Source: an uncultured Caulobacterales bacterium
Lineage (GTDB): Bacteria > Pseudomonadota > Alphaproteobacteria > Caulobacterales > Caulobacteraceae
NCBI GenBank assembly: GCA_903862425.1
Contig: CAIOYC010000008.1
Location: 124,001 to 188,000 of the forward strand
Direction of reading: 5' to 3'
DNA: 64,000 nt
The translations under genes were made by a program, and so were the position numbers. The notes beneath the pieces are model-generated. The model ran no database searches and had not been told where the DNA came from. It worked only from the letters and a program-made list of their open reading frames with translations. This document shows positions 7,073 to 18,235 of this stretch, one piece after another. Position 1 is the stretch's first letter; each line of letters starts with the position of its first letter.

Positions 7073-7711
7073 ATGAGCGACCCGACCGATCTCACCCTCG
7101 ATGCCGACCTGCACCGGCGCGATCCGGATCGCTGGTTGTCCAGCCGGTTCGTGACCGACCCTGCCCAGCGCGCGCGCCTCGTGGCGCTCTACACGCTTGA
7201 TGGAGAGTGGTCGCGGGTGAAGGCAGCAGCCAAGACGCCGTTGGCGGGGGAAATCCGCTTCGCCTGGTGGCGCGAGGCGCTGGAGCGATTCGCCGCTGGC
7301 GGACCCGCCGACCATCCGGCCATCGGCGCGCTCGGCGCCCGCGCCGCCCAAGACCTTCAGCTCCTGCTGCAACAGGTGATAGACGCCCGCATGGACGAAC
7401 TCGAAGGCGAACAGGGCGCCGCGTCCGATGTCGCACTGATGGCCGCCGCCGCGCGCCTGCTCGACCCCGCCGCGCCGGAAGCCGCCACCCACCACGCCGC
7501 CCGCGCCTGGTTTGCTGCCCGCGGCGGCATGGCGGAGGAGGCGAAACGCAGCCTTGCGACAGCGAGCGTGAGCGTGCGGGCCTTGCCGGTCGCAGCCTTC
7601 CCCGCTGTGGCCCACGTGGCTCTGGCCCCGGCCTATGCCTTGGGTCGTCAACCGGGCGAGTTCGGAAAGCGCCTGCGGATCACCTGGGCGGTATTGCGCG
7701 GCCGCCTCTAG
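7073..7711 (+). CDS. Squalene/phytoene synthase family protein, NDUFAF6-like, probably non-catalytic
   Basis: A 212-residue protein. The segment LVALYTLDGEWSRVKAA then AGEIRFAWWREALE (about residues 40-75) matches the head of the squalene/phytoene synthase fold. It is shorter than true synthases (about 280 or more residues), and the two Asp-rich DxxxD motifs that bind the diphosphate-magnesium substrate are not seen. Such short homologues resemble mitochondrial NDUFAF6, a complex I assembly factor. The Mth938-like gene nearby (an NDUFAF3 relative) makes this reading more attractive. ATG 7073 is preferred over in-frame upstream codons that lie within the terminator hairpin. Its 3' end overlaps the convergent DUF1353 gene by four bases. 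Confidence 0.7.
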   Translation: MSDPTDLTLDADLHRRDPDRWLSSRFVTDPAQRARLVALYTLDGEWSRVKAAAKTPLAGEIRFAWWREALERFAAGGPADHPAIGALGARAAQDLQLLLQQVIDARMDELEGEQGAASDVALMAAAARLLDPAAPEAATHHAARAWFAARGGMAEEAKRSLATASVSVRALPVAAFPAVAHVALAPAYALGRQPGEFGKRLRITWAVLRGRL

Positions 7712-8313
7712 AAGTGCGGCAGGACCTGTTCGGCACGCATCTTCAGATAGGTGGCGCCCTTCATATCCTCGCAGCGCTTCAGCTGGGCGATAATGGCGGT
7801 CCGGGGGCGGGGCGGAGCCTTGACCGGCTTCTGCGTCTCCGGATCGGCGAAGCGCCACTCAGTCATGGCTCCATAGTTCTTGGACCCACCGAACCGCACC
7901 GTCTCGTACATAATCTTGCGGCGGATCGGGTCTACGTGATGCTGGGCCAGAGCGTCGAGCAGGATGGTGTCTGCCTTCTCCCGCTGGCCCGGTTCGCCGA
8001 TGGCGTAGAGGTAGTCGTGGATCACCGCGCCCTCCATGTTGTCGCCCATGGGATCGATGATGCCGGCCGCGGCATAGGGGATGGAGGCAAAGTCGGTCTC
8101 GAACCCCTTGGGCACGCGGATCACCTCGTGGGTCAGCGGATAGCACCAGTAGAAGTCGTCTGTAATCACCGCCACGCGGCGAAAGCCCTCGCGCCGGGCG
8201 TCGCGCTCGATCGCCACGTGTAGCGAGGTCTCTGGCGTCCATTCCGACGCGCAGCCGGCTATCAGAAGGCTGGGGAGCGCCAGGAGCGTGACGAGCAGGA
8301 GCGCCCGCTTCAC
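7708..8313 (-). CDS. DUF1353-domain lipoprotein
   Basis: A 201-residue protein with a signal peptide ending in a lipobox (LIAGC, Cys near residue 21). The mature part contains [12 protein letters not shown] and then AVIHDYLY, the conserved core of DUF1353, a domain found in phage and bacterial proteins without a known activity. The lipobox predicts an envelope location, which is not typical of the phage-encoded members. Its ATG overlaps the trmFO stop (8310-8313), so it is probably transcribed behind trmFO. The DUF1353 assignment is by motif recognition. Confidence 0.7.
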
Positions 8314-9743
8314 GCCGCGACCTCCTCGGCCGCCCGCCCGTTCAGCCAGGCGTCGAGGTCGGCCAGGGCGCGCTGACCCATGATCTTCTTCTTAGCCCGG
8401 CCGCGCTCGGCGGGGTTCATCTTCTTGCCGTCCGAATTGCGTTTGGGTGTTTCGGGCAGGGGCGGGAGCAGTCCGTAATTGATGTTCATGGGCTGGAACG
8501 AACCTGAACCGTGGCCGATATGGCCACCGGTGATGTGGGCGATGAGGGCGCCCAGCGCCGTTGTCGGCGGCGGCGGGGCTAGGTCGTGGCCAAGTCGCTC
8601 GGCGGCGGCGAGCCGGCCGGCGATCAGGCCGATGGCGGCGCTCTCCACATAACCCTCGACCCCGGTCACCTGTCCGGCGAAGCGGATGCGCGGCTCCAAC
8701 TTCAGCCGCAGCCGGCCGTCGAGCAGACGCGGTGCGTTGATAAAGGTGTTGCGGTGCAGTCCGCCCAGCCGGGCGAAAACCGCGTTCTGAAGCCCTGGAA
8801 TGGTGCGGAACACCTCCGTCTGCGCCCCGTGCTTCAGCTTGGTCTGGAAGCCGACCATGTTGAACAGGGTGCCCAGGGCATTGTCCTGTCGCAGTTGGAC
8901 GATGGCATGGGCCTTCTCCATCGGATTATGCGGATTGGTCAGACCGACCGGCTTCATCGGCCCGAACCGCAGGGTTTCCGGTCCCCGCTCGGCCATCACC
9001 TCGATGGGCAGGCAGCCGTCGAAATAGGGCACGCTCTCCCAGTCCTTGAATTCGGCCTTGGGTCCGTCGAGCAGGGCCCGGACGAAAGCGTCGTACTGCG
9101 CCTTGTCCATGGGACAGTTGATATAGGCGGCGGCGTCTCCACCGGGGCCTTCCTTGTCGTAGCGCGACTGGCGCCAGGCGATGGACATGTCGATGCTGTC
9201 GGTCAACACGATGGGGGCGATGGCGTCGAAGAAGGCGAGGGCGTCCTCACCGGTCCGCTCCAGGATGGCGGCGGATAGGGCGGGGGAGGTGAGGGGGCCG
9301 GTGGCGATCACCACGCTGTCCCAATCCGCCGGCGGTAGGCCGGCCACCTCACCGCGTTCGAGGGTGATCAGCGGATGGTTGGTCAGGGCTTCGGTGACGC
9401 GGTCGGAGAAGCCGTCCCGGTCTACGGCGAGCGCGCCGCCGGCCGGCACCTGGCTCAAGTCGCCGCAGCGCATGATGATGGAGTTGCACCGGCGCATCTC
9501 CGCATGCAGCAGGCCGACGGCATTGTACTCCGCGTCGTCCGAGCGGAAGGAGTTGGAGCAGACCAGCTCAGCCAGCCCCTCGGTCTGGTGTGCTGGTGTC
9601 TTCACCACCGGGCGCATTTCGTGCAGCACCACCGGCACGCCCGCCTCGGCGATCTGCCAGGCGCATTCGGAGCCGGCGAGCCCTCCGCCGATCACGTGCA
9701 CCGCCGCCTTGTTGTTTGCAGAAGTCGTCATGGGCGCCACCAT
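8310..9743 (-). CDS. trmFO: Methylenetetrahydrofolate-tRNA-(uracil-5-)-methyltransferase TrmFO
   Basis: A 477-residue flavoprotein that forms ribothymidine at position 54 of tRNA using methylenetetrahydrofolate and FADH2. The FAD dinucleotide motif [15 protein letters not shown] is near the N-terminus, followed by [14 protein letters not shown] and [12 protein letters not shown], all typical of TrmFO, and [15 protein letters not shown] near the C-terminus. Two start codons are possible, ATG 9743 or ATG 9731; they differ by four residues. A divergent membrane-protein gene begins 81 bases upstream. The DUF1353 gene overlaps its end and is probably co-transcribed. Confidence 0.95.
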
Positions 9744-9824: not shown

Positions 9825-10634
9825 GTGACGGCAGATATCGGCGCAGCCTTGAAGGCCGCCTTCGCCTTTTGGCGAACGCAGACCCAGCGCGTTCCGGGCG
9901 CCATCATCCTGGTGGTGCTGGCCGGCCTCGCCGCCGCCGTCGAGCCCAGGCTCGGCTGGCCGCCTCTATGGCTCAGCCTGTCAGGTCTGGTGCAGGTGCT
10001 GCTTTCGGTCGTGGCCTATGGCGCCCTGTTCCGCCTGGCGCTGGCGTCCTCTCATCCCGGCGACAAGACCTTCGCCATCGGTCCGGCGGGCCTGCAATGG
10101 ACCATGGTCGAGTGGCGGCTGCTCGGCGCCCTGGCCCTCACCGTCTTCTTCGCTTTCCTGGTGCTGATCTTCCTGGTGTTCGCGGCCTTCCTGGCGGCCA
10201 TCGTCGTCTACGCCATGGAGGGGGCAAAGCCGACCACGCCCGCTGGCTTCTTCACCAGCAGCGGAGGGATCACCCTGATCGGCATCCTGGTGCTGGGCGC
10301 AATTCCATTGGTGTGGGCGCTCGTGCGCCTGTCCCTGGCCATGCCGGCGACGGTGGACCGAGGCCGGGTGCAGGTGTTCGCCACGTGGGACCTGACCAAG
10401 GGCCACGTGGTGGCGATCCTGATCTCAGCCATCATCGTCGGCCTGCCGGTGCTTGTGCTGGGCATGGCGGCCAGCTTCGCCAAACAGAGCGGCATGTACG
10501 GTCTGGCCACAGGATTGCGCCTTGTCACAGCCCTTGTGGCCGGCGGCTACCAGTTCCCCATGGCCGCGGGCCTTTACAGTCACTTCTATGAGGTTTTTGG
10601 CGGGCGCGGCGCGGCGGACACGCCGCACAACTGA
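9825..10634 (+). CDS. Multi-pass membrane protein, member 1 of a four-gene tandem family
   Basis: A 269-residue protein with about six hydrophobic segments and a GTG start preceded by GGAGACGA. Two motifs link it to its neighbours: GPAGLQW-x3-EWRL (about residues 86-97), shared with the next gene, and VRLSLA-x3-T-x4-R followed by W-x-LT-x-G (about 167-195), shared with the genes at 12208 and 13213. That second motif resembles the pattern found in the GPDPase-membrane-domain/YciC-like group of integral membrane proteins. No enzyme active site is visible. Function is unknown; four such genes in a row suggest a membrane complex or family expansion. Confidence 0.8.
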   Translation: MTADIGAALKAAFAFWRTQTQRVPGAIILVVLAGLAAAVEPRLGWPPLWLSLSGLVQVLLSVVAYGALFRLALASSHPGDKTFAIGPAGLQWTMVEWRLLGALALTVFFAFLVLIFLVFAAFLAAIVVYAMEGAKPTTPAGFFTSSGGITLIGILVLGAIPLVWALVRLSLAMPATVDRGRVQVFATWDLTKGHVVAILISAIIVGLPVLVLGMAASFAKQSGMYGLATGLRLVTALVAGGYQFPMAAGLYSHFYEVFGGRGAADTPHN

Positions 10635-10730
10635 CAGGCGCGCTGGGTTGCCTTGCATCCCGCGACGGACGAGAAGTTAACGCGACGCTTGAATCGTGAT
10701 CATACTGCGTTGTCCCAGGGGAAGTCCGCT

Positions 10731-12203
10731 TTGAGCAAACCCGCTCACGTCCGCCTAAGCACCGGCGACCTTATCGCCGAGGGTTCGGACCTGTCGCGCG
10801 AGGCGTGGCGCGACGCCTGGGCGCCCATGCTGCTGGTCATCGCCGGCCACACCCTGATGTTCATGAACCAGCATGTGGCCGCGAGCGATTGGCATGCGGG
10901 GATCTGGACCTTCGTCGGCCCGGCGCTGCTGATTTTCTACGTACCGCTCTACGGCGCGCTTTATCGGGCCGCGCTGGGCGGGCGGGCGATGGAGAGCCAC
11001 GGTCCGGCAGGCCTGCAGTGGAACGGGGTGGAATGGCGGCTGATCACCGTCGGCGTGATCATCGTCTTCCTGGCTGGCCTCGCCATGACGCCCTTCCTGG
11101 CGGTCACGGGCATCGCCGCCCTGATCGTGCGCGGCCCGCCGTTCACGATCAGCTATCTGGGGACCTGGGCGCGCTGGGCGCCGGGCGCAGCGATCATCTG
11201 GGCCTTCTTCTTCTGGATCATGGCGCCGCGCCTGGCCCGGCTGATGCTCGGCTGGCCCTATTCCACCGGGCGGGAGAAGACCGAGCCCTTCGCCGGCTGG
11301 AGCCCGGCCGAGCGGTCGGGCTGGAGCATCGCCTGGGCGCTCGTCGGGGCCTGCATCCCGCTTGCGCTCGGCTATCTCGGCGTGTTCGCCATGACCCTGA
11401 TCGAGGGCGATACGCTGGTGGGCAATTACTGGCCGCTTCCCGAAGCGGTCGGGGCGGGCCTGTTGCTCGGCGCCTTGAAGGCCGCCGTCACCGCCCCCCT
11501 CCTCGTCGGCATTCTGTCCGGCGCCTACTGGCTGCTTGAGGAGCATCGCCTGGCCGAAGAGGCGGCGCATCCGACTGCCGAGCATCACGGACTGCTCGAC
11601 AGCCTGGGCGACGCCGCCAAGGCCGCCGCCGCCGCGCTCGCTGCACGGGAGGCGGGGGTGTTCGGTCATCACGACACAGATCGCCATGTGACCGACGCGG
11701 CGCCATCCCATCCCGACGCCGAGATCGAACCGACGGAGCCCGAGGCGCCCGCCCGCCATCAAGGCTTCCTCGACAGCCTCGGTCCGGCCGCCAAGGCGGC
11801 GATGGCTGCGGCCGCGGCCCTGGCCGTGAAAGAAGCAGCCGAACTCGGCCTACATCCTTCCCAGGTGGATCGTCAGGTCGACGAGCATGAACCTCCCGCG
11901 CCTGAGCCGGACGTCGAGCCGCCGGTGATCGCCGATGCGCATGCGCCGCTGCGCGAAGTTCCGCAGACTGAGCCGTCCGCCGGCGCCGCGGCGCACGAAA
12001 TGGGCATGGAGTCCTATGACGCGCCGGCTGACGCGCGGCATGCGACGCCGGATCACCTCGACGGTCCGCTCTCCATCTGGCCGCACTCGATCCTGCCGCC
12101 ATGGCCCAAGCCGGTCGCCGCCACCACTGCACGGAATCCCGCCGCCACACCCCTTGCCTCCGCCGCCGAACCCGCGCACGCCTCGCCGGAGATAGCGGAG
12201 TAG
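10731..12203 (+). CDS. Membrane protein with long acidic/His-rich tail, member 2 of the tandem family
   Basis: About 490 residues: a six-segment membrane domain (to roughly residue 275) and a 215-residue Ala/Pro/Glu/His-rich C-terminal tail. The membrane part shares YGALYR and GPAGLQW-x3-EWRL with the previous gene. The tail holds two copies of an LDSLG-x-AAKAA unit at about residues 288 and 346, 58 residues apart. The start is chosen as TTG 10731, which has AGGGGAAG at 10717-10724; an upstream TTG at 10653 would add 26 residues. The next gene starts 4 bases after its stop, so they are almost certainly co-transcribed. No known domain is recognised in the tail. Confidence 0.75.
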   Translation: MSKPAHVRLSTGDLIAEGSDLSREAWRDAWAPMLLVIAGHTLMFMNQHVAASDWHAGIWTFVGPALLIFYVPLYGALYRAALGGRAMESHGPAGLQWNGVEWRLITVGVIIVFLAGLAMTPFLAVTGIAALIVRGPPFTISYLGTWARWAPGAAIIWAFFFWIMAPRLARLMLGWPYSTGREKTEPFAGWSPAERSGWSIAWALVGACIPLALGYLGVFAMTLIEGDTLVGNYWPLPEAVGAGLLLGALKAAVTAPLLVGILSGAYWLLEEHRLAEEAAHPTAEHHGLLDSLGDAAKAAAAALAAREAGVFGHHDTDRHVTDAAPSHPDAEIEPTEPEAPARHQGFLDSLGPAAKAAMAAAAALAVKEAAELGLHPSQVDRQVDEHEPPAPEPDVEPPVIADAHAPLREVPQTEPSAGAAAHEMGMESYDAPADARHATPDHLDGPLSIWPHSILPPWPKPVAATTARNPAATPLASAAEPAHASPEIAE

Positions 12204-12207
12204 GGCG

Positions 12208-13161
12208 ATGAGCGAGTTTTCACCGACCGAGGCGGCGCTAGAGGGGCTGCGCATCACGCGTGAGCGTCCGATCGCCGTGCTGTGGTGGTGGGCGGCCTAT
12301 GTGATCGCCGCCCTGGTCCAGATCGGCGTCTCCGCCCTCCCGCCCTTCAACCACCTCGCCGCCGTTCTGCCCGATCTGCAGGCCGCCTCCATCGCCGTGC
12401 AGCAGAACCCCACCGACGCCGCGGCCAGCCAGCACTTCATGGGCCTGATCGGTCGCTCCGCCCCGGCCTTCGTGGCCTTCGCCGCGCTGGTGCTGCTGAT
12501 CCAGATGATCCTCTCCACCGCCGTGCTGCGGGCAGTCCTGCGACCGGCGGAGCGGGCCGCCGGCTATCTGCGCCTGTCGCTGGACGAGGTGCGCCAGCTC
12601 GGCCTCGCCCTCCTCATGTTCGCCGCGTTCGTCGCCTATGCCTTCGTCGTCTCCCTGGCCTCGGGAGTCGTTGTCGGCGTGCTGGGCATGTTCCTTGGCA
12701 AGGCGCTGCCCATCCTCGGTGGGCTGGCCTTCGCCTTGGTCACCGTCGCCTTCATCTATCCGGTGGTGCGCCTTTCGCTCGCCCCCGCCATGACTTTGGC
12801 GGACGGTCGGATCAGCTTTATGAGATCGTGGGCACTGACCCAGGGACGCTTCTGGCCCCTGTTCGGCGCCTACATTGTCGCCTTCATCATCGCCTTCGCC
12901 CTGTGGGCGGCGATCTATACCCTTGTGGCCATCCTGCTGCTCGTCAGCGGTGTGGACGCCAAGGCGGCGGCCGAGAGCGGGGCGGCGATGCGCTTTTCGC
13001 CGGTGTTCGTCGCCCTGCTCCTGGCCAATGGCCTGCTCGGCGCCCTGATCAGCGTGATCGTCACCGCGCCCATGGCCTCGGCCTTCCGCCAGATCACCGG
13101 CCGGGTCGGCGCGCAGCTGCAATCGCGCGCGACCGCAGGCTCGCCATGGGGACAACCTTAG
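12208..13161 (+). CDS. Multi-pass membrane protein, member 3 of the tandem family
   Basis: A 317-residue protein with about six hydrophobic segments. It starts with FSPTEAALEGLR, nearly the same as the FSPSEAAFEGFR opening of the following gene, and carries YPVVRLSLAPAMTLADGR then SWALTQGRFWPLFGAY in its second half. These two blocks are shared with member 4 in the same order and spacing, and weakly with member 1. The start is ATG 12208, 4 bases after the preceding stop. The conserved SW-x-LT-x-G-x-FW-x-LFG string is reminiscent of the YciC/GPDPase membrane domain group. Role unknown. Confidence 0.8.
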   Translation: MSEFSPTEAALEGLRITRERPIAVLWWWAAYVIAALVQIGVSALPPFNHLAAVLPDLQAASIAVQQNPTDAAASQHFMGLIGRSAPAFVAFAALVLLIQMILSTAVLRAVLRPAERAAGYLRLSLDEVRQLGLALLMFAAFVAYAFVVSLASGVVVGVLGMFLGKALPILGGLAFALVTVAFIYPVVRLSLAPAMTLADGRISFMRSWALTQGRFWPLFGAYIVAFIIAFALWAAIYTLVAILLLVSGVDAKAAAESGAAMRFSPVFVALLLANGLLGALISVIVTAPMASAFRQITGRVGAQLQSRATAGSPWGQP

Positions 13162-13212
13162 GCTAGCCTTCGCGCTGGCCGCGATCTGATCGGACCGTCC
13201 GGGGGCAACGGG

Positions 13213-14223
13213 ATGCAGCGCTTTTCACCGTCGGAAGCCGCCTTCGAGGGCTTTCGCGTTATCCGAAATCACCCCGGCGCCGTGCTGGCCTGGGTCGGGG
13301 CCTATCTACTGATCATGCTGGTGGTCGGCGGGCTCGCCCTTGCCCTGTTCGGACCTCAGATCGCGACGATGCAGGCCTATTCAGGCCAGACCGCCATGCC
13401 GCCGGACGTGGCGCTGCGGTTCATCGGCTCCATGGGCCTGGTTTTCCTGATCGCGGTCCCGATCGTGTTGTTCATGGCCGCGGTCTTCATCAACGCCCTG
13501 TTCCGACCGATTCTGCGCCCGGAGGACAGGGGCCTGTTCTATCTCAAGCTCGGCGGCGACGAGGGGCGGCTCGTCCTGCTGATGCTGTGCTGGATGGGGC
13601 TCGGCATCGCGGCGGAGATCGCGTTTGTCATCCTGCTGATCGTCATCGGCCTTGGGACCGGTGCTGCGATGGCGGGACTTCATCCGGGGGCGACGACAGA
13701 TGGGCGTTCCGTCCTGATCGTCGTCGGGCTGATGCTGGCCCTGTTCTGCGTCGGTATCTGGCTGTTCGTCCGCCTGTCCCTCGCCGCGCCGATGACCTTC
13801 GCGGAAAAGCGGGTCAGCGTTTTCGGCTCCTGGCGCGTGACACGGGGTAAATTCTGGTCGCTGTTCGGCTGCTACATCCTGGCTTGCATATTCGCTCTGA
13901 TGATCGGGGTGTTGGGCTGGGTGGTGTCGGTCTGCGCCGGGGCGGTGATCAGCGGCGACTGGACCGCGCTCTCCACTGCGGGCGCCAACCCACAGATGGC
14001 GATGATGAAGAGCAATCTGGGCCTGCTCACCCACCTGTTCACGGCCGGAGCCATCGTCCAGCTTGTCCTGTCGAGCCTGATGGGCGCGATCAGCCGGATC
14101 GTGATGTACGCGCCCCTGGCCGCGGCCTATCGCGACCTGGCCCCCGCAACGCCGGCCGGCTCCATCGGCGGCGACCCGTTCGCAGAGGCGCCGCCGATCC
14201 GCAATTCAGGGCTGGTGCTCTAG
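13213..14223 (+). CDS. Multi-pass membrane protein, member 4 of the tandem family
   Basis: A 336-residue membrane protein, clearly paralogous to the gene at 12208: the shared blocks are FSPSEAAFEGFR at the N-terminus, FRPILRPEDRGLFYLKLGGD in the middle, and VRLSLAAPMTFAEKR with SWRVTRGKFWSLFGCY in the second half. About six to seven hydrophobic segments are present, with a short polar C-terminal tail. It lies 51 bases after member 3, in the same direction, and converges with the GST gene one base away. No catalytic motif is visible. Confidence 0.8.
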   Translation: MQRFSPSEAAFEGFRVIRNHPGAVLAWVGAYLLIMLVVGGLALALFGPQIATMQAYSGQTAMPPDVALRFIGSMGLVFLIAVPIVLFMAAVFINALFRPILRPEDRGLFYLKLGGDEGRLVLLMLCWMGLGIAAEIAFVILLIVIGLGTGAAMAGLHPGATTDGRSVLIVVGLMLALFCVGIWLFVRLSLAAPMTFAEKRVSVFGSWRVTRGKFWSLFGCYILACIFALMIGVLGWVVSVCAGAVISGDWTALSTAGANPQMAMMKSNLGLLTHLFTAGAIVQLVLSSLMGAISRIVMYAPLAAAYRDLAPATPAGSIGGDPFAEAPPIRNSGLVL

Positions 14224-14224
14224 C

Positions 14225-14863
14225 TCAGGCGGCGTCGGCAATCCGGGCGTTGGGCTGGGCGCTCGGGCGGGCCGAGACGCGGGCGCGCCAGGCAGCGAGA
14301 TGCGCGGCGCTTTCGGGGGGCTCCAGACCCGTGAAACTCGCGAAGTCGACCGTACTCTGGGCGCAGATGTCGGCCATGGTATAGGCCTCGCCGACCAGGA
14401 ACGGGCGCCCGTCCGCCAGCGCCCGGTCGATCAGGGTGCAGGCGGCCATATAGAGGTCGCGGTTGGATTCGCCGAAATCCTTATACTGGGTCAGCAGGTG
14501 TGCGGTGTACGGGTGCGCGTGGCGCCAGAACATGCCCACCGGCGTCATCAGGGTCAGCTCGACGCGTCGCGTCCACATCTCCACTTCCGCCTGTTCGAAG
14601 GCGTCGCGACCGAACAGCGGTGGAGTAGGGTGGAGCGCCTCAAGGTATCGGCAGATGGCGACGGTCTCGGAGATCGTTCTGCCGTCATCGAGCTCCAGGG
14701 TCGGGACCTGGCCCCAGGGGTTCTTGGCGCGAAACTCGGGCGCCTTATGCTCGCGGTCGCGTAGGGACACCATCACTTCGGGCATGGCGATGCCCTTCTC
14801 GACCATGAAGATGCGCACGCGGCGTGGATTGGGGGCGGGATCGGGCGCGCTGTAAAGCTTCAT
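14225..14863 (-). CDS. Glutathione S-transferase family protein
   Basis: A 212-residue GST. The N-terminal thioredoxin-like domain contains KLYSAPDPAPNPRRVRIF, the cis-Pro segment WGQVPTLELDDG and the glutathione-binding SETVAICRYLE; the remainder is the all-helical domain. The catalytic position near the N-terminus appears to be Ser/Asn-type, not a clear Tyr, so the class is uncertain. ATG 14863 is chosen because the fold begins right there; the open frame continues upstream into the next gene. It lies 4 bases behind a small secreted-protein gene on the same strand. Substrate unknown. Confidence 0.85.
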   Translation of the reverse strand: MKLYSAPDPAPNPRRVRIFMVEKGIAMPEVMVSLRDREHKAPEFRAKNPWGQVPTLELDDGRTISETVAICRYLEALHPTPPLFGRDAFEQAEVEMWTRRVELTLMTPVGMFWRHAHPYTAHLLTQYKDFGESNRDLYMAACTLIDRALADGRPFLVGEAYTMADICAQSTVDFASFTGLEPPESAAHLAAWRARVSARPSAQPNARIADAA

Positions 14864-14867
14864 CGGG

Positions 14868-15155
14868 TCAGCACCCGCCGGCGGAGCAGGTGTTGGCCTT
14901 GGAGCCCATCTGGCTGGCCTCGAGCTGCGAACGGCCAAACTCACCCATGGCTGCCCACTGGGTCTTGGTGTGGCAGACGCGCGACTTGAAGCGCTGGCCG
15001 GTCTTTTCCTCGTCGCGACAGACCACCTTGTCGCCGTCGGAGGGCTTGCCGACCACCGAGGCGGCGGGCGGCGGCATCTCGATGGCCTGGGCCAGGGCGG
15101 CGCTGGCGGCGGCGAGCCCAAATAGTATGGCGCAAGCCGGAACGGCGGTCTTCAT
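14868..15155 (-). CDS. Small secreted hypothetical protein with Cys-rich tail
   Basis: A 95-residue protein with a Sec-type signal peptide (hydrophobic ACAILFGLAAASAALAQA, cleavage probably after AQA). The mature part of about 75 residues is charged and has four cysteines: one in VVCRDEE, one in RVCHTK and two in the final NTCSAGGC, so disulfides are likely in the periplasm. ATG 15155 has GGGGGA about six bases upstream; ATG 15161 would put that site too close. The GST gene begins 4 bases after its stop. No family is recognised with certainty. Confidence 0.7.
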   Translation of the reverse strand: MKTAVPACAILFGLAAASAALAQAIEMPPPAASVVGKPSDGDKVVCRDEEKTGQRFKSRVCHTKTQWAAMGEFGRSQLEASQMGSKANTCSAGGC

Positions 15156-15229: not shown

Positions 15230-18200
15230 TCAGGCCGTCTTCTTGGCTTTTGCCGCTTTGGCGGGGGCCGCTTTGGCCGTTTCAGCCTTGGCGACCGGCC
15301 CCTTTGCCTTGGTCGGCTTGGGCGCTTCGATCCTCGCCGGCGGGGCGTGACCGTGGGCCAAAGCGCGGGCGGTGTGTCGGTCCAGCACTTCCTTCAGATA
15401 GCGGCCGGTCCAGCTCTCCTGGCTGGCCGCCACCTGTTCGGGCGTTCCCACGGCCACGATCAGGCCGCCACCGTCCCCGCCCTCGGGGCCGAAGTCGAGC
15501 AGCCAGTCGGCGGTCTTCACCACATCGAGATTGTGCTCGATCACCACCACCGTATTGCCCTGGTCCACCAGCTCGTGCAGCACCTCAAGCAGCTTGCGGG
15601 TGTCCTCGAAGTGCAGGCCCGTGGTGGGTTCATCCAGAATGTAGAGGGTGCGCCCCGTGGCCCGGCGCGACAGTTCCTTCGACAACTTCACCCGCTGCGC
15701 TTCGCCGCCCGACAGGGTCGTGGCCGACTGGCCGACCTTGACATAGCCGAGGCCGACCCGCTTCAGCGTCTCCATCTTGTCGCGGATCGGTGGCACGGCC
15801 TTGAAGAAATCGCCGCCCTCGTCGACCGTCATCTCCAGAACGTCGGAGATAGACTTGCCGCGATACAGGATCTCCAAGGTCTCGCGGTTGTAGCGCTTGC
15901 CGTGGCAGACGTCGCAGGTGACGTAGACGTCGGGCAGGAAGTGCATCTCGATCTTGATCAGCCCGTCGCCCTGACAGGCCTCGCAGCGCCCGCCCTTGAC
16001 GTTGAAGCTGAACCGGCCCGGGCCATAGCCGCGCGCCTTGGACTCCGGCAGCCCGGCGAACCAGTCGCGGATCGGCCCGAAGGCGCCGGTATAGGTGGCC
16101 GGGTTCGAGCGCGGTGTGCGCCCGATGGGCGACTGGTCGATATCGATCACCTTGTCGAAATTCTCCAGCCCCTCCACCCGGTCGTGGTGGGCCGGGGCGT
16201 CGGAGGCGGTGTTCAGCCGCCGCGCCGCCGCCTTGTAGAGGGTCTCGATGGTGAAGGTGGACTTGCCGCCGCCAGAGACGCCGGTGATGCAGGTGAACAC
16301 GCCGACCGGGATTTCGCCGGTTACGTTCTTCAGGTTGTTGCCCCGTGCCCCGATCACCTTGATCGACTTCTTGCCGATGGCGCGGCGATGGCGCGGCACG
16401 GCGATCTCGCGCGCGCCGGTGAGGTACTGGCCGGTCAGGCTCTTGGGCTCGGCCATGATGTCGTCGGGCGTACCCTCGGCCACCACATGGCCGCCGTGGA
16501 CCCCGGCGCGCGGACCCATATCGATCACGTAGTCAGCGGTGAGGATGGCCTCCTCGTCGTGCTCCACCACCAAGACCGAGTTGCCGAGGTCTCGCAGGCC
16601 CTTCAGCGAGGTGAGCAGGCGGGTATTGTCGCGCTGGTGCAGGCCGATTGAGGGCTCGTCGAGCACATACAGCACACCGGTAAGGCCCGAGCCGATCTGC
16701 GAGGCCAGGCGGATGCGCTGACTCTCGCCGCCCGACAGGGTGCCGGACGCCCGCGACAGGGTGAGGTAATCGAGGCCGACCTCCACGAGGAAGCGGAGGC
16801 GGTCGTTGATCTCCTTCAGGATGCGGCGGGCGATCTCGGCCTGCTGGGGCGTGAAGCTGGGCTCCAGCCCGCCGAAGAACTCCATGGCGCGGCGAATGGC
16901 CAGGGTGGAGGCCTCGCCGATATTCATCCCGCCGACGCGCACGGCCAAGGCCTCGGGCTTCAGGCGCAGGCCCTTGCAGGCCTCGCAAGGGGTTTCTGAC
17001 TGATAGCGGCCGAGCTCCTCGCGCACCCAGGCGCTGTCGGTCTCCTTCCAGCGCCGTTGCAGGTTGGGCAGCACGCCTTCGAAGGGCTTGCTGACCTCGT
17101 ACTTCCGCGCCTGATCGTCATAGGTGAACTTCACCTTCTCCGACCCGGTGCCGTAGAGGATGACCTTGCGCGCCGCCTCGTCGAGCTCGAACCACGGCTT
17201 GTCCATGGAGAAGCCGTAGTGGCGGGCCAGGGCCTGCAAGGTCTGGGTGTAGAGCGGGGAGGGGCCGCGCGCCCAGGGCGCTACCGCCCCTTTGTGCAGG
17301 GTCTTGTCCTTGTCCGGCACCACCAGATCCGCGTCGAAGGTCAGCTTCTGGCCGAGGCCGTCGCAGGCGGGGCAGGCGCCGGCCGGCGCGTTGAACGAGA
17401 ACAGGCGCGGCTCGATCTCGGTGATGGTGAAGCCGGAAACCGGGCAGGCGAATTTTTCCGAGAACAGGATGCGGCGCGGCTCTTTCTCACCGTCCTTTAT
17501 GTCGGCCCATTCGGCGGTGGCGATCCCGTCGGCGAGCGACAGGGCGGTGGAGATCGAGTCCGCCAGCCGCTGCTCCTGGCCAGGCTTGGTGATGATCCGG
17601 TCGACCACGATGTCGATGTCGTGCTTGAACTTCTTGTCGAGGGTCGGCGCATCCTCGATGGGATAGAAGATCCCGTCGATCTTGAGGCGCTGATAGCCCT
17701 GGCGCTGCCAGTCGGCGATTTCCTTGCGGTATTCGCCCTTACGGTCGCGCACCACGGGGGCGAGGAGCAGGATGCGCTCGCCGTCGGGTAGGGCGGCGAT
17801 CTTGTCCACCATCTGGCTGACGGTCTGGCTTTCGATCGGCAGGCCGGTGGCGGGCGAATAGGGCACACCCACCCGCGCCCATAGCAGGCGCATATAGTCG
17901 TGGATCTCGGTGACCGTGCCCACGGTAGAGCGCGGGTTCTTGGACGTGGTCTTCTGCTCGATGGAGATGGCCGGGGACAGGCCCTCGATCAGGTCCACGT
18001 CCGGCTTGCCCATAAGCTCCAGGAACTGGCGCGCATAGGCCGACAGGCTCTCCACATAGCGCCGCTGCCCCTCCGCATAGATGGTGTCGAAGGCGAGGGA
18101 CGACTTGCCGGAGCCGGACAGGCCGGTGAGCACCACGAGCTGACCGCGGGGTATATCGACATCGACCCCCTTCAGATTGTGCTCGCGCGCGCCGCGCACC

Positions 18201-18235
18201 TTGATGGCCCCATAGGGGGAGAGGGGGTGGGTCAT
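15230..18235 (-). CDS. uvrA: UvrABC system protein A
   Basis: A 1001-residue UvrA, the damage-recognition ATPase of nucleotide excision repair. It has both ABC ATPase halves: the first Walker A (GLSGSGKSS) is near residue 40 and the second (GVSGGGKST) in the C-terminal half, with LSGGESQR and LSGGEAQR signatures. Zinc-finger modules are visible as CPACDGLG and CEACQGDG...CDVCHG. After the core there is a Lys/Ala/Pro-rich tail of about 50-60 residues, which probably is disordered. A LexA-type operator lies 75 bases upstream of the start (18310-18324), predicting SOS induction. Confidence 0.97.

Follow-up and report, generated by a model that had tools for sequence, protein, structure and literature searches.

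CysZ, the CTL/SLC44 proteins and the GPDPase_memb/YciC group are described membrane proteins that bear on the genes treated here. According to passages of PMC5967866, CysZ mediates sulfate flux in reconstituted systems, and part of PMC10299036 states that overexpression of YciC reduces intracellular D-alanine. In sections of Nel et al. 2026 (PMC13160678), PNS1 is reported to resemble CysZ with a DALI Z of 9.7. The CTL fold is called unusual there, and its likeness to CysZ unexpected, the topology proposed for CysZ being hard to reconcile with it. Here we compare with these systems four consecutive membrane-protein genes, g1 to g4 (9825 to 14223, + strand), in a window of 64,000 nucleotides (nt) from an uncultured Caulobacterales bacterium (GCA_903862425.1, contig CAIOYC010000008.1, positions 124,001 to 188,000). 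Judged from sequence comparisons, this array consists of four ancient paralogues in an operon-like arrangement, which belong to a so far undescribed branch of the GPDPase_memb/YciC superfamily. Its predicted fold is that of CysZ and the CTL proteins. We have high confidence in family, array and predicted fold, taken together.

A preliminary reading from the letters alone (the sequence-only reading) had described the genes as a tandem paralogous family, and all of its motifs are present. FSP(T/S)EAA(L/F)EG(L/F)R occurs in g3 and g4, and GPAGLQW-x3-EWRL in g1 (10080..10121, +, at the position of the second amphipathic helix) and g2 (11001..11042, +). VRLSLA...SW-x-(L/V)T-x-G-x-FW-x-LFG is found in g3 and g4, and VRLSLA...W-x-LT-x-G in g1. 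The g4 copy, VRLSLA...SWRVTRGKFWSLFG (13768..13869, +), spans the end of helix 4 and the third amphipathic helix. The GPAGLQW..EWRL block of g1 and g2 shares one alignment position with a YLRL(G/S)xDExR block of g3 and g4, and both represent the same element. R98 and R187 (g4 numbering) are nearly invariant in the 78-row alignment.

The relationship was quantified in two ways. Smith-Waterman scores were compared with 200 local shuffles that preserve the hydropathy profile, and they exceeded all shuffles for g3-g4 (z 16.8), g1-g2 (8.4), g1-g4 (7.6), g2-g4 (7.5) and g1-g3 (5.3). Direct similarity between g2 and g3 was undetectable in this test (z -0.8). In their best local BLAST alignments the paralogues are 25-33% identical, g2 and g3 being again without a notable alignment. 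A held-out profile was built from 74 relatives, obtained by iterative searches started from g3 and g4, with the window proteins excluded. It recovers the class II members g4 (13213..14223, +, 336 amino acids (aa), E 1.6e-75) and g3 (12208..13161, +, 317 aa, E 1.4e-56). It also recovers the short class I member g1 (9825..10634, +, 269 aa with a GTG start, E 1.4e-22) and the class I member g2, which carries a long C-terminal tail (10731..12203, +, 490 aa with a TTG start, E 9.1e-8). The best open reading frame (ORF) outside the family reaches 0.52. When 11 class I rows are removed from the profile, g4, g3 and g1 are still matched and g2 is absent at E<=10. Some of the regions used retain over-extended ORF starts, and g2 stands in the family alignment A1 with a longer, probably wrong N terminus.

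Hydrophobic proteins may resemble each other by chance or composition, since such composition is common among membrane proteins, and the missing direct alignment of g2 with g3 would fit that view. The held-out E-values, the local-shuffle z-scores, the common predicted fold of g2 and g4 and the conserved synteny refute it, and its probability is negligible. The description as a tandem family therefore stands: the genes are adjacent and co-oriented, and the profile evidence does not distribute the four proteins over unrelated families.

None of the four window genes passes a Pfam or NCBIfam cut-off. For GPDPase_memb (PF10110, gathering cut-off 29.6 bits), 0 of 4 array genes pass, with a best E of 0.96, and the source genome holds no match at E<=0.01. 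Ten of the 78 family members match at E<=1 (best 6.2e-5). Comparison of profiles reaches further. It used all 30 CysZ proteins, all 13 YciC proteins and 27 of 28 PF10110 proteins, one of fewer than 150 aa being dropped, with the last 360 residues of each. Against the PF10110-picked set, A1 gives E 6.3e-18 over 246 columns (score 128). A1 by itself matches 17 of the 27 proteins in this set at E<=1e-3, and the 10 that were not A1-matched still give E 1.2e-7 over 39 columns (score 58). Against the 13 PF06790-picked YciC proteins, the values are E 2.3e-6, probability 89% and score 49 over 62 columns, a likeness confined to the surroundings of the third short helix (model columns 188-249). It extends to E 1.8e-10, probability 97% and 180 columns with class-level relatives, and reaches E 3.9e-14 through the PF10110 set. 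Three membrane families from neighbouring genes, taken as controls, score 14.4-14.7 against the 128, 58 and 49 above. Two proteins of one genome (G241) form a bridge, as they score above the PF10110 cut-off, with 32.6 and 30.4 bits, and match A1 at 5e-37 and 5e-24. The resemblance to the GPDPase membrane domain and YciC that the sequence-only reading had suggested is thereby upheld.

Other families leave fainter traces. Among the 78 members, weak Pfam matches include, besides others, DUF898 in four (best 1.1e-4), DUF7847 in one (5.4e-4) and DUF4013 in three (best 0.06). Weak NCBIfam matches are DrpB for g1 (E 0.019) and FlhB for g4 (E 0.082). A sequence search of the PDB returned three hits, all taken as chance: one to a designed protein (E 0.0037) and two to chains of chemoreceptors (0.066 and 0.068).

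The predicted fold is an addition to the sequence-only reading. AlphaFold2 models were obtained for g4, with a predicted local distance difference test (pLDDT) score of 88.9 and a predicted TM-score (pTM) of 0.83, and for g2 (pLDDT 74.5, pTM 0.66), where the core lies mostly above 85 and the tail mostly below 60. Each predicted core contains six long helices. In VIA-align, the g4 model retrieves CysZ and PNS1 at the top (Z 12.9, 12.6, 11.7 and 11.4; next row 7.3), and the g2 model CysZ, PNS1 and CTL1 (11.8, 11.5, 11.0, 8.7 and 7.7; next row 4.7). Against CysZ 3tx3, g4 aligns 218 residues at a root-mean-square deviation (rmsd) of 4.1 (Z 12.9), and against PNS1 9f63, 267 residues at 6.6 (Z 11.4). 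The g2 model aligns 201 residues with CysZ (Z 11.8, rmsd 4.6) and reaches Z 8.7 with PNS1 and 7.7 with CTL1 7wwb. The likeness to CysZ is thus near whole-length in both predicted models (Z 11.0-12.9). A CysZ/CTL fold is credible mainly because two distant members retrieve the same known folds first, and both show a gap to the next row. An internal threefold sequence repeat was also considered. The first and third units score 27.4 over 86 columns, the second and third 20.1 over 34 columns (reversed controls 12.0-12.2), and the first and second 11.0 (control 9.3). We do not claim such a repeat because reversed controls for the first and third units come close, at 22.8-23.4.

The distribution of lysine and arginine (K/R) suggests how the proteins sit in the membrane. 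On the side of the amphipathic helices, the mean count is 12.3 against 2.1 on the other side (0.132 versus 0.034 per residue). The bias has the same direction in 78 of 78 aligned members, with none reversed. A first alignment misplaced g2 through its tail (11 versus 8); in a second, the counts were 9 versus 3 for g1, 9 versus 2 for g2, 12 versus 3 for g3 and 13 versus 2 for g4. By the positive-inside rule, the positively charged side of a membrane protein faces the cytoplasm. This rule and the K/R bias would place the g2 tail, as expected, together with the N and C termini and the short helices in the cytoplasm, and all paralogues are probably inserted the same way round. The CysZ authors' reply to reviewers, part of the record of PMC5967866, mentions the same charge bias in CysZ.

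Duplication may also have produced paralogues of opposite orientation that form CysZ-like antiparallel hetero-dimers. Duplication is known to give rise to gene pairs of opposite topology, which counts in favour of this arrangement. Inverted subunits in CysZ crystals, described in PMC5967866, point the same way. We nonetheless judge such pairing very improbable, as the uniform K/R bias of all 78 members argues against it.

The explanation that we consider best overall, and moderately probable, is that the operon-like array of CysZ-fold proteins forms oligomers through which a small polar solute passes or is exported. Each member would comprise three hairpins of long helices, preceded by short, probably amphipathic helices, with the N terminus, the C terminus, the short helices and nearly all K/R residues on the cytoplasmic side. 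The members may build homo- or hetero-oligomeric units in the inner membrane, and hetero-oligomers are plausible products of an operon-like array. These units would pass or export their solute as CysZ does sulfate and, reportedly, E. coli YciC does D-alanine, and the copies may have specialised after duplication. The passage or export itself, drawn by analogy, is a tentative proposal.

Several observations weigh against this explanation. Foldseek returned no match with E <0.001. Its top rows were ABC transporters with low TM-scores, and CysZ appeared at E 0.53-1.7 with a query-length TM of 0.3-0.4. Z values under about 13 can be common among helical bundles, and the g2 and g4 models share alignment rows, so they are not fully independent. 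In profile comparison, A1 scores 17.4 against CysZ, near the negative controls, and control pairs with CysZ reach 26.9. The single sequences of E. coli CysZ and E. coli YciC each do no better with the A1 profile than their own shuffled copies. Finally, sections of PMC13160678 state that CTL proteins did not transport choline and suggest a non-transport role for the fold.

An equivalent role for the array, in which a lipid would be bound in the membrane and organised or sensed and no solute moved, is somewhat unlikely in our judgement. It draws on the rank of PNS1, within the first four structural matches for each model, with CTL1 fifth for g2, and on the Pfam title of PF10110, the membrane domain of glycerophosphoryl diester phosphodiesterase, whose substrate class is lipid-derived. 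Nel et al. further describe, in the same sections, a larger unidentified ligand, lipid- or sterol-like densities in a groove and a fold that appears incompatible with transport (PMC13160678). Passage of a polar solute is favoured by the functions ascribed to CysZ, the closer structural match, which mediates sulfate flux in the account of PMC5967866, and to YciC, which lowers intracellular D-alanine in that of PMC10299036.

The family is widespread within the order Caulobacterales. Its profile matches 119 of the 120 genomes sampled and every one of their 29 genera, 35 of the 120, the source genome included, having contributed profile rows. At least two matches occur in 85 of these genomes, not always adjacent, and a single one in 34. 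With single queries, g4 reaches 94 of the 120 genomes, g1 27 and g2 only the source genome; among 41 near relatives, g2 alone matches in four, again counting the source genome. In a sample of the class, matches occur in 66 of 240 genomes, of which three belong to the order, and some of the loci outside the order likewise lie near trmFO or uvrA. A single-protein scan of named relatives with g4 gave no match and a scan with a Caulobacter homologue gave 15 loci; plasmids held no match to g4. Within the order, few genomes hold CysZ/EI24: 13 of 120 match at E<=0.001, and 12 exceed the cut-off. It occurs in 0 of 25 sampled genomes of the window's bacterial family and in 124 of 150 of a phylum sample. 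This pattern is suggestive, but a simple replacement of CysZ by the array is not supported because EI24 and the array family occur together in 11 genomes of another bacterial family, f3, and in two of f2.

Synteny was followed in 40 regions fetched on account of holding hits, with neighbouring genes sought by tblastn. These regions contain from one to four members, at least two in 31, at least three in 16 and four in six. The gene uvrA is present in 33, trmFO in 28, both in 27 and either in 34. On the region maps they mostly adjoin the array, sometimes with intervening genes, and Caulobacter endophyticus, C. radicis and C. zeae carry the array with both. One of two congeners (G357) retains g1 to g4 in order between trmFO and uvrA. 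In the other (G358), trmFO is followed by g2-like and g3-like genes with no g1 between them, and no uvrA appears before the contig ends. In Caulobacter (L047 and L048), the two classes are arranged in a different order. Tandem members are thus common at the locus across the order. The exact four-gene order, which the sequence-only reading had proposed to follow across Caulobacterales, is intact in one of the two congeners and is not conserved more widely, as the varying copy number and the Caulobacter class order indicate.

A quick maximum-likelihood tree, with the Shimodaira-Hasegawa-like approximate likelihood ratio test (SH-aLRT) as its sole support measure, sets 13 class I rows, comprising g1, g2 and members of three bacterial families, apart from class II (support 86, not starred). 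Within class II, paralogues mostly cluster per bacterial family, among them 37 rows from the bacterial family of the source genome with a support of 95, a pattern expected from repeated local duplication. Some long branches, g2 included, are unsurely placed. The tree groupings, the pairwise similarity and the tandem family agree with the local duplication suggested from the sequence alone. The paralogues could, in principle, be redundant products of dosage or drift that do the same job without a hetero-complex. The range of one to four copies per fetched region, the genomes with a single match and the lineage-specific duplications in the tree are compatible with this view. We consider it unlikely, and specialisation likely, because classes I and II coexist in three bacterial families and the identity among the window paralogues is low.

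At the locus itself, g1 to g4 are separated by gaps of 96 nt (g1 to the TTG at 10731), 4 nt and 51 nt. A single operon fits these short gaps and the convergent orientation of the next gene. A promoter scan of the locus found no sigma-70-like promoter; six terminator-like sites were placed inside g2 and g4. The g2 ORF has an alternative, longer start at 10653 (516 aa). The TTG at 10731, as chosen in the sequence-only reading, is preferred because gene 2 of G357 starts at the aligned position (MAKRAAARLTVSELIAEASDFSREAWR versus LSKPAHVRLSTGDLIAEGSDLSREAWR).

The array is flanked by a divergent gene with a GIDA domain (8310..9743, -; PF01134, E 1e-93), which we take to be trmFO, and by a convergent glutathione S-transferase (GST) ORF (14225..15121, -; PF13409, E 5.1e-16, residues 97-162), followed by uvrA (15230..18235, -; PF17755/PF17760). 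About 85 residues precede the domain in the GST ORF, whose true start is probably internal (MKLYSAPDP...). In four genomes of a Caulobacter-like genus (L045, L046, L050 and L051), an opposite-strand GST gene lies between array members and not after the array. Beyond trmFO, the upstream neighbours are genes resembling SecDF and squalene/phytoene synthase, a gene for a membrane protein resembling Urate_ox_N, and genes with DUF498 and DUF1353. The DUF1353 protein (7708-8313, E 1e-24) is a probable lipoprotein, as read from its N-terminal signal and a lipobox-like LLIAGC.

The g2 tail (11580..12200, +) comprises 207 aa, is rich in Ala, Pro, Glu and His, has an isoelectric point (pI) of 4.8 and is modelled mostly with low pLDDT. 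It contains two copies of LDSLGxAAKAA and a short motif, WPHSILPPWP (12078..12107, +), whose counterpart in G357 is WPHSVLPPWP. The G357 tail is 337 aa long (pI 4.2), and WPHS[IV]LPPWP is common to both. The g2 tail may act as a cytoplasmic binding arm. A wider and quite doubtful conjecture is that CysZ, CTL/SLC44 and GPDPase_memb/YciC form one fold superfamily, and that the trmFO-uvrA array is a same-orientation hetero-oligomer in which g2 docks a cytoplasmic partner through this motif.

A search of titles and abstracts found no study recognisably on the array, and the open-licence PMC literature yielded no earlier statement linking GPDPase_memb/YciC with the CysZ/CTL fold. As a set of uncharacterised membrane genes, the array is ordinary; its interest lies mainly in joining GPDPase_memb/YciC with that fold. 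An uncharacterised array in the order of Caulobacter gains a predicted fold and testable roles. Moreover, a bacterial family present in 119 of 120 sampled genomes of the order, with a CTL-like predicted fold and a uniform charge bias, offers a tractable model for the role and orientation of the fold.

Compared with described systems, the array keeps a distinct profile. From GPDPase_memb it differs in that its genes are tandem and stand-alone, with no phosphodiesterase domain in the four at E<=10. PF06790 (YciC/UPF0259) was found in none of the four genes, the source genome or four other genomes of the order among those listed. BPSS1780 (NF041043) resembles g4 residues 8-96 at E 5.7e-4; the match reaches 19.2 bits against a cut-off of 90, and only 3 of 78 members match at E<=1. 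Membership in the CysZ family is not supported by sequence. PF07264 (CysZ/EI24) has no match in the source genome; at E<=1 it matches 3 of 78 members, the best at 0.032. Two CysZ motifs were sought, QYxDYPxDNHK and the GLR of the sulfate site. None of the 78 members has QYx(D/A)YP, which 15 of the 30 CysZ proteins carry. G(L/I)R close to the N terminus is present in 4 of 78, g3 being the only window gene with it, and in 21 of the 30 CysZ proteins. The family proteins are also longer than CysZ, with six long helices. Relative to CTL/SLC44, sections of PMC13160678 describe eukaryotic proteins, with 10 transmembrane helices in CTL1 and PNS1 and a large extracellular domain in CTL1, in contrast to the six long helices of the array cores. 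The predicted models match PNS1 (both) and CTL1 (g2 only) at the Z values given above, and they share with the CTL proteins, as portrayed in those sections, an arrangement of helix pairs around three amphipathic helices.

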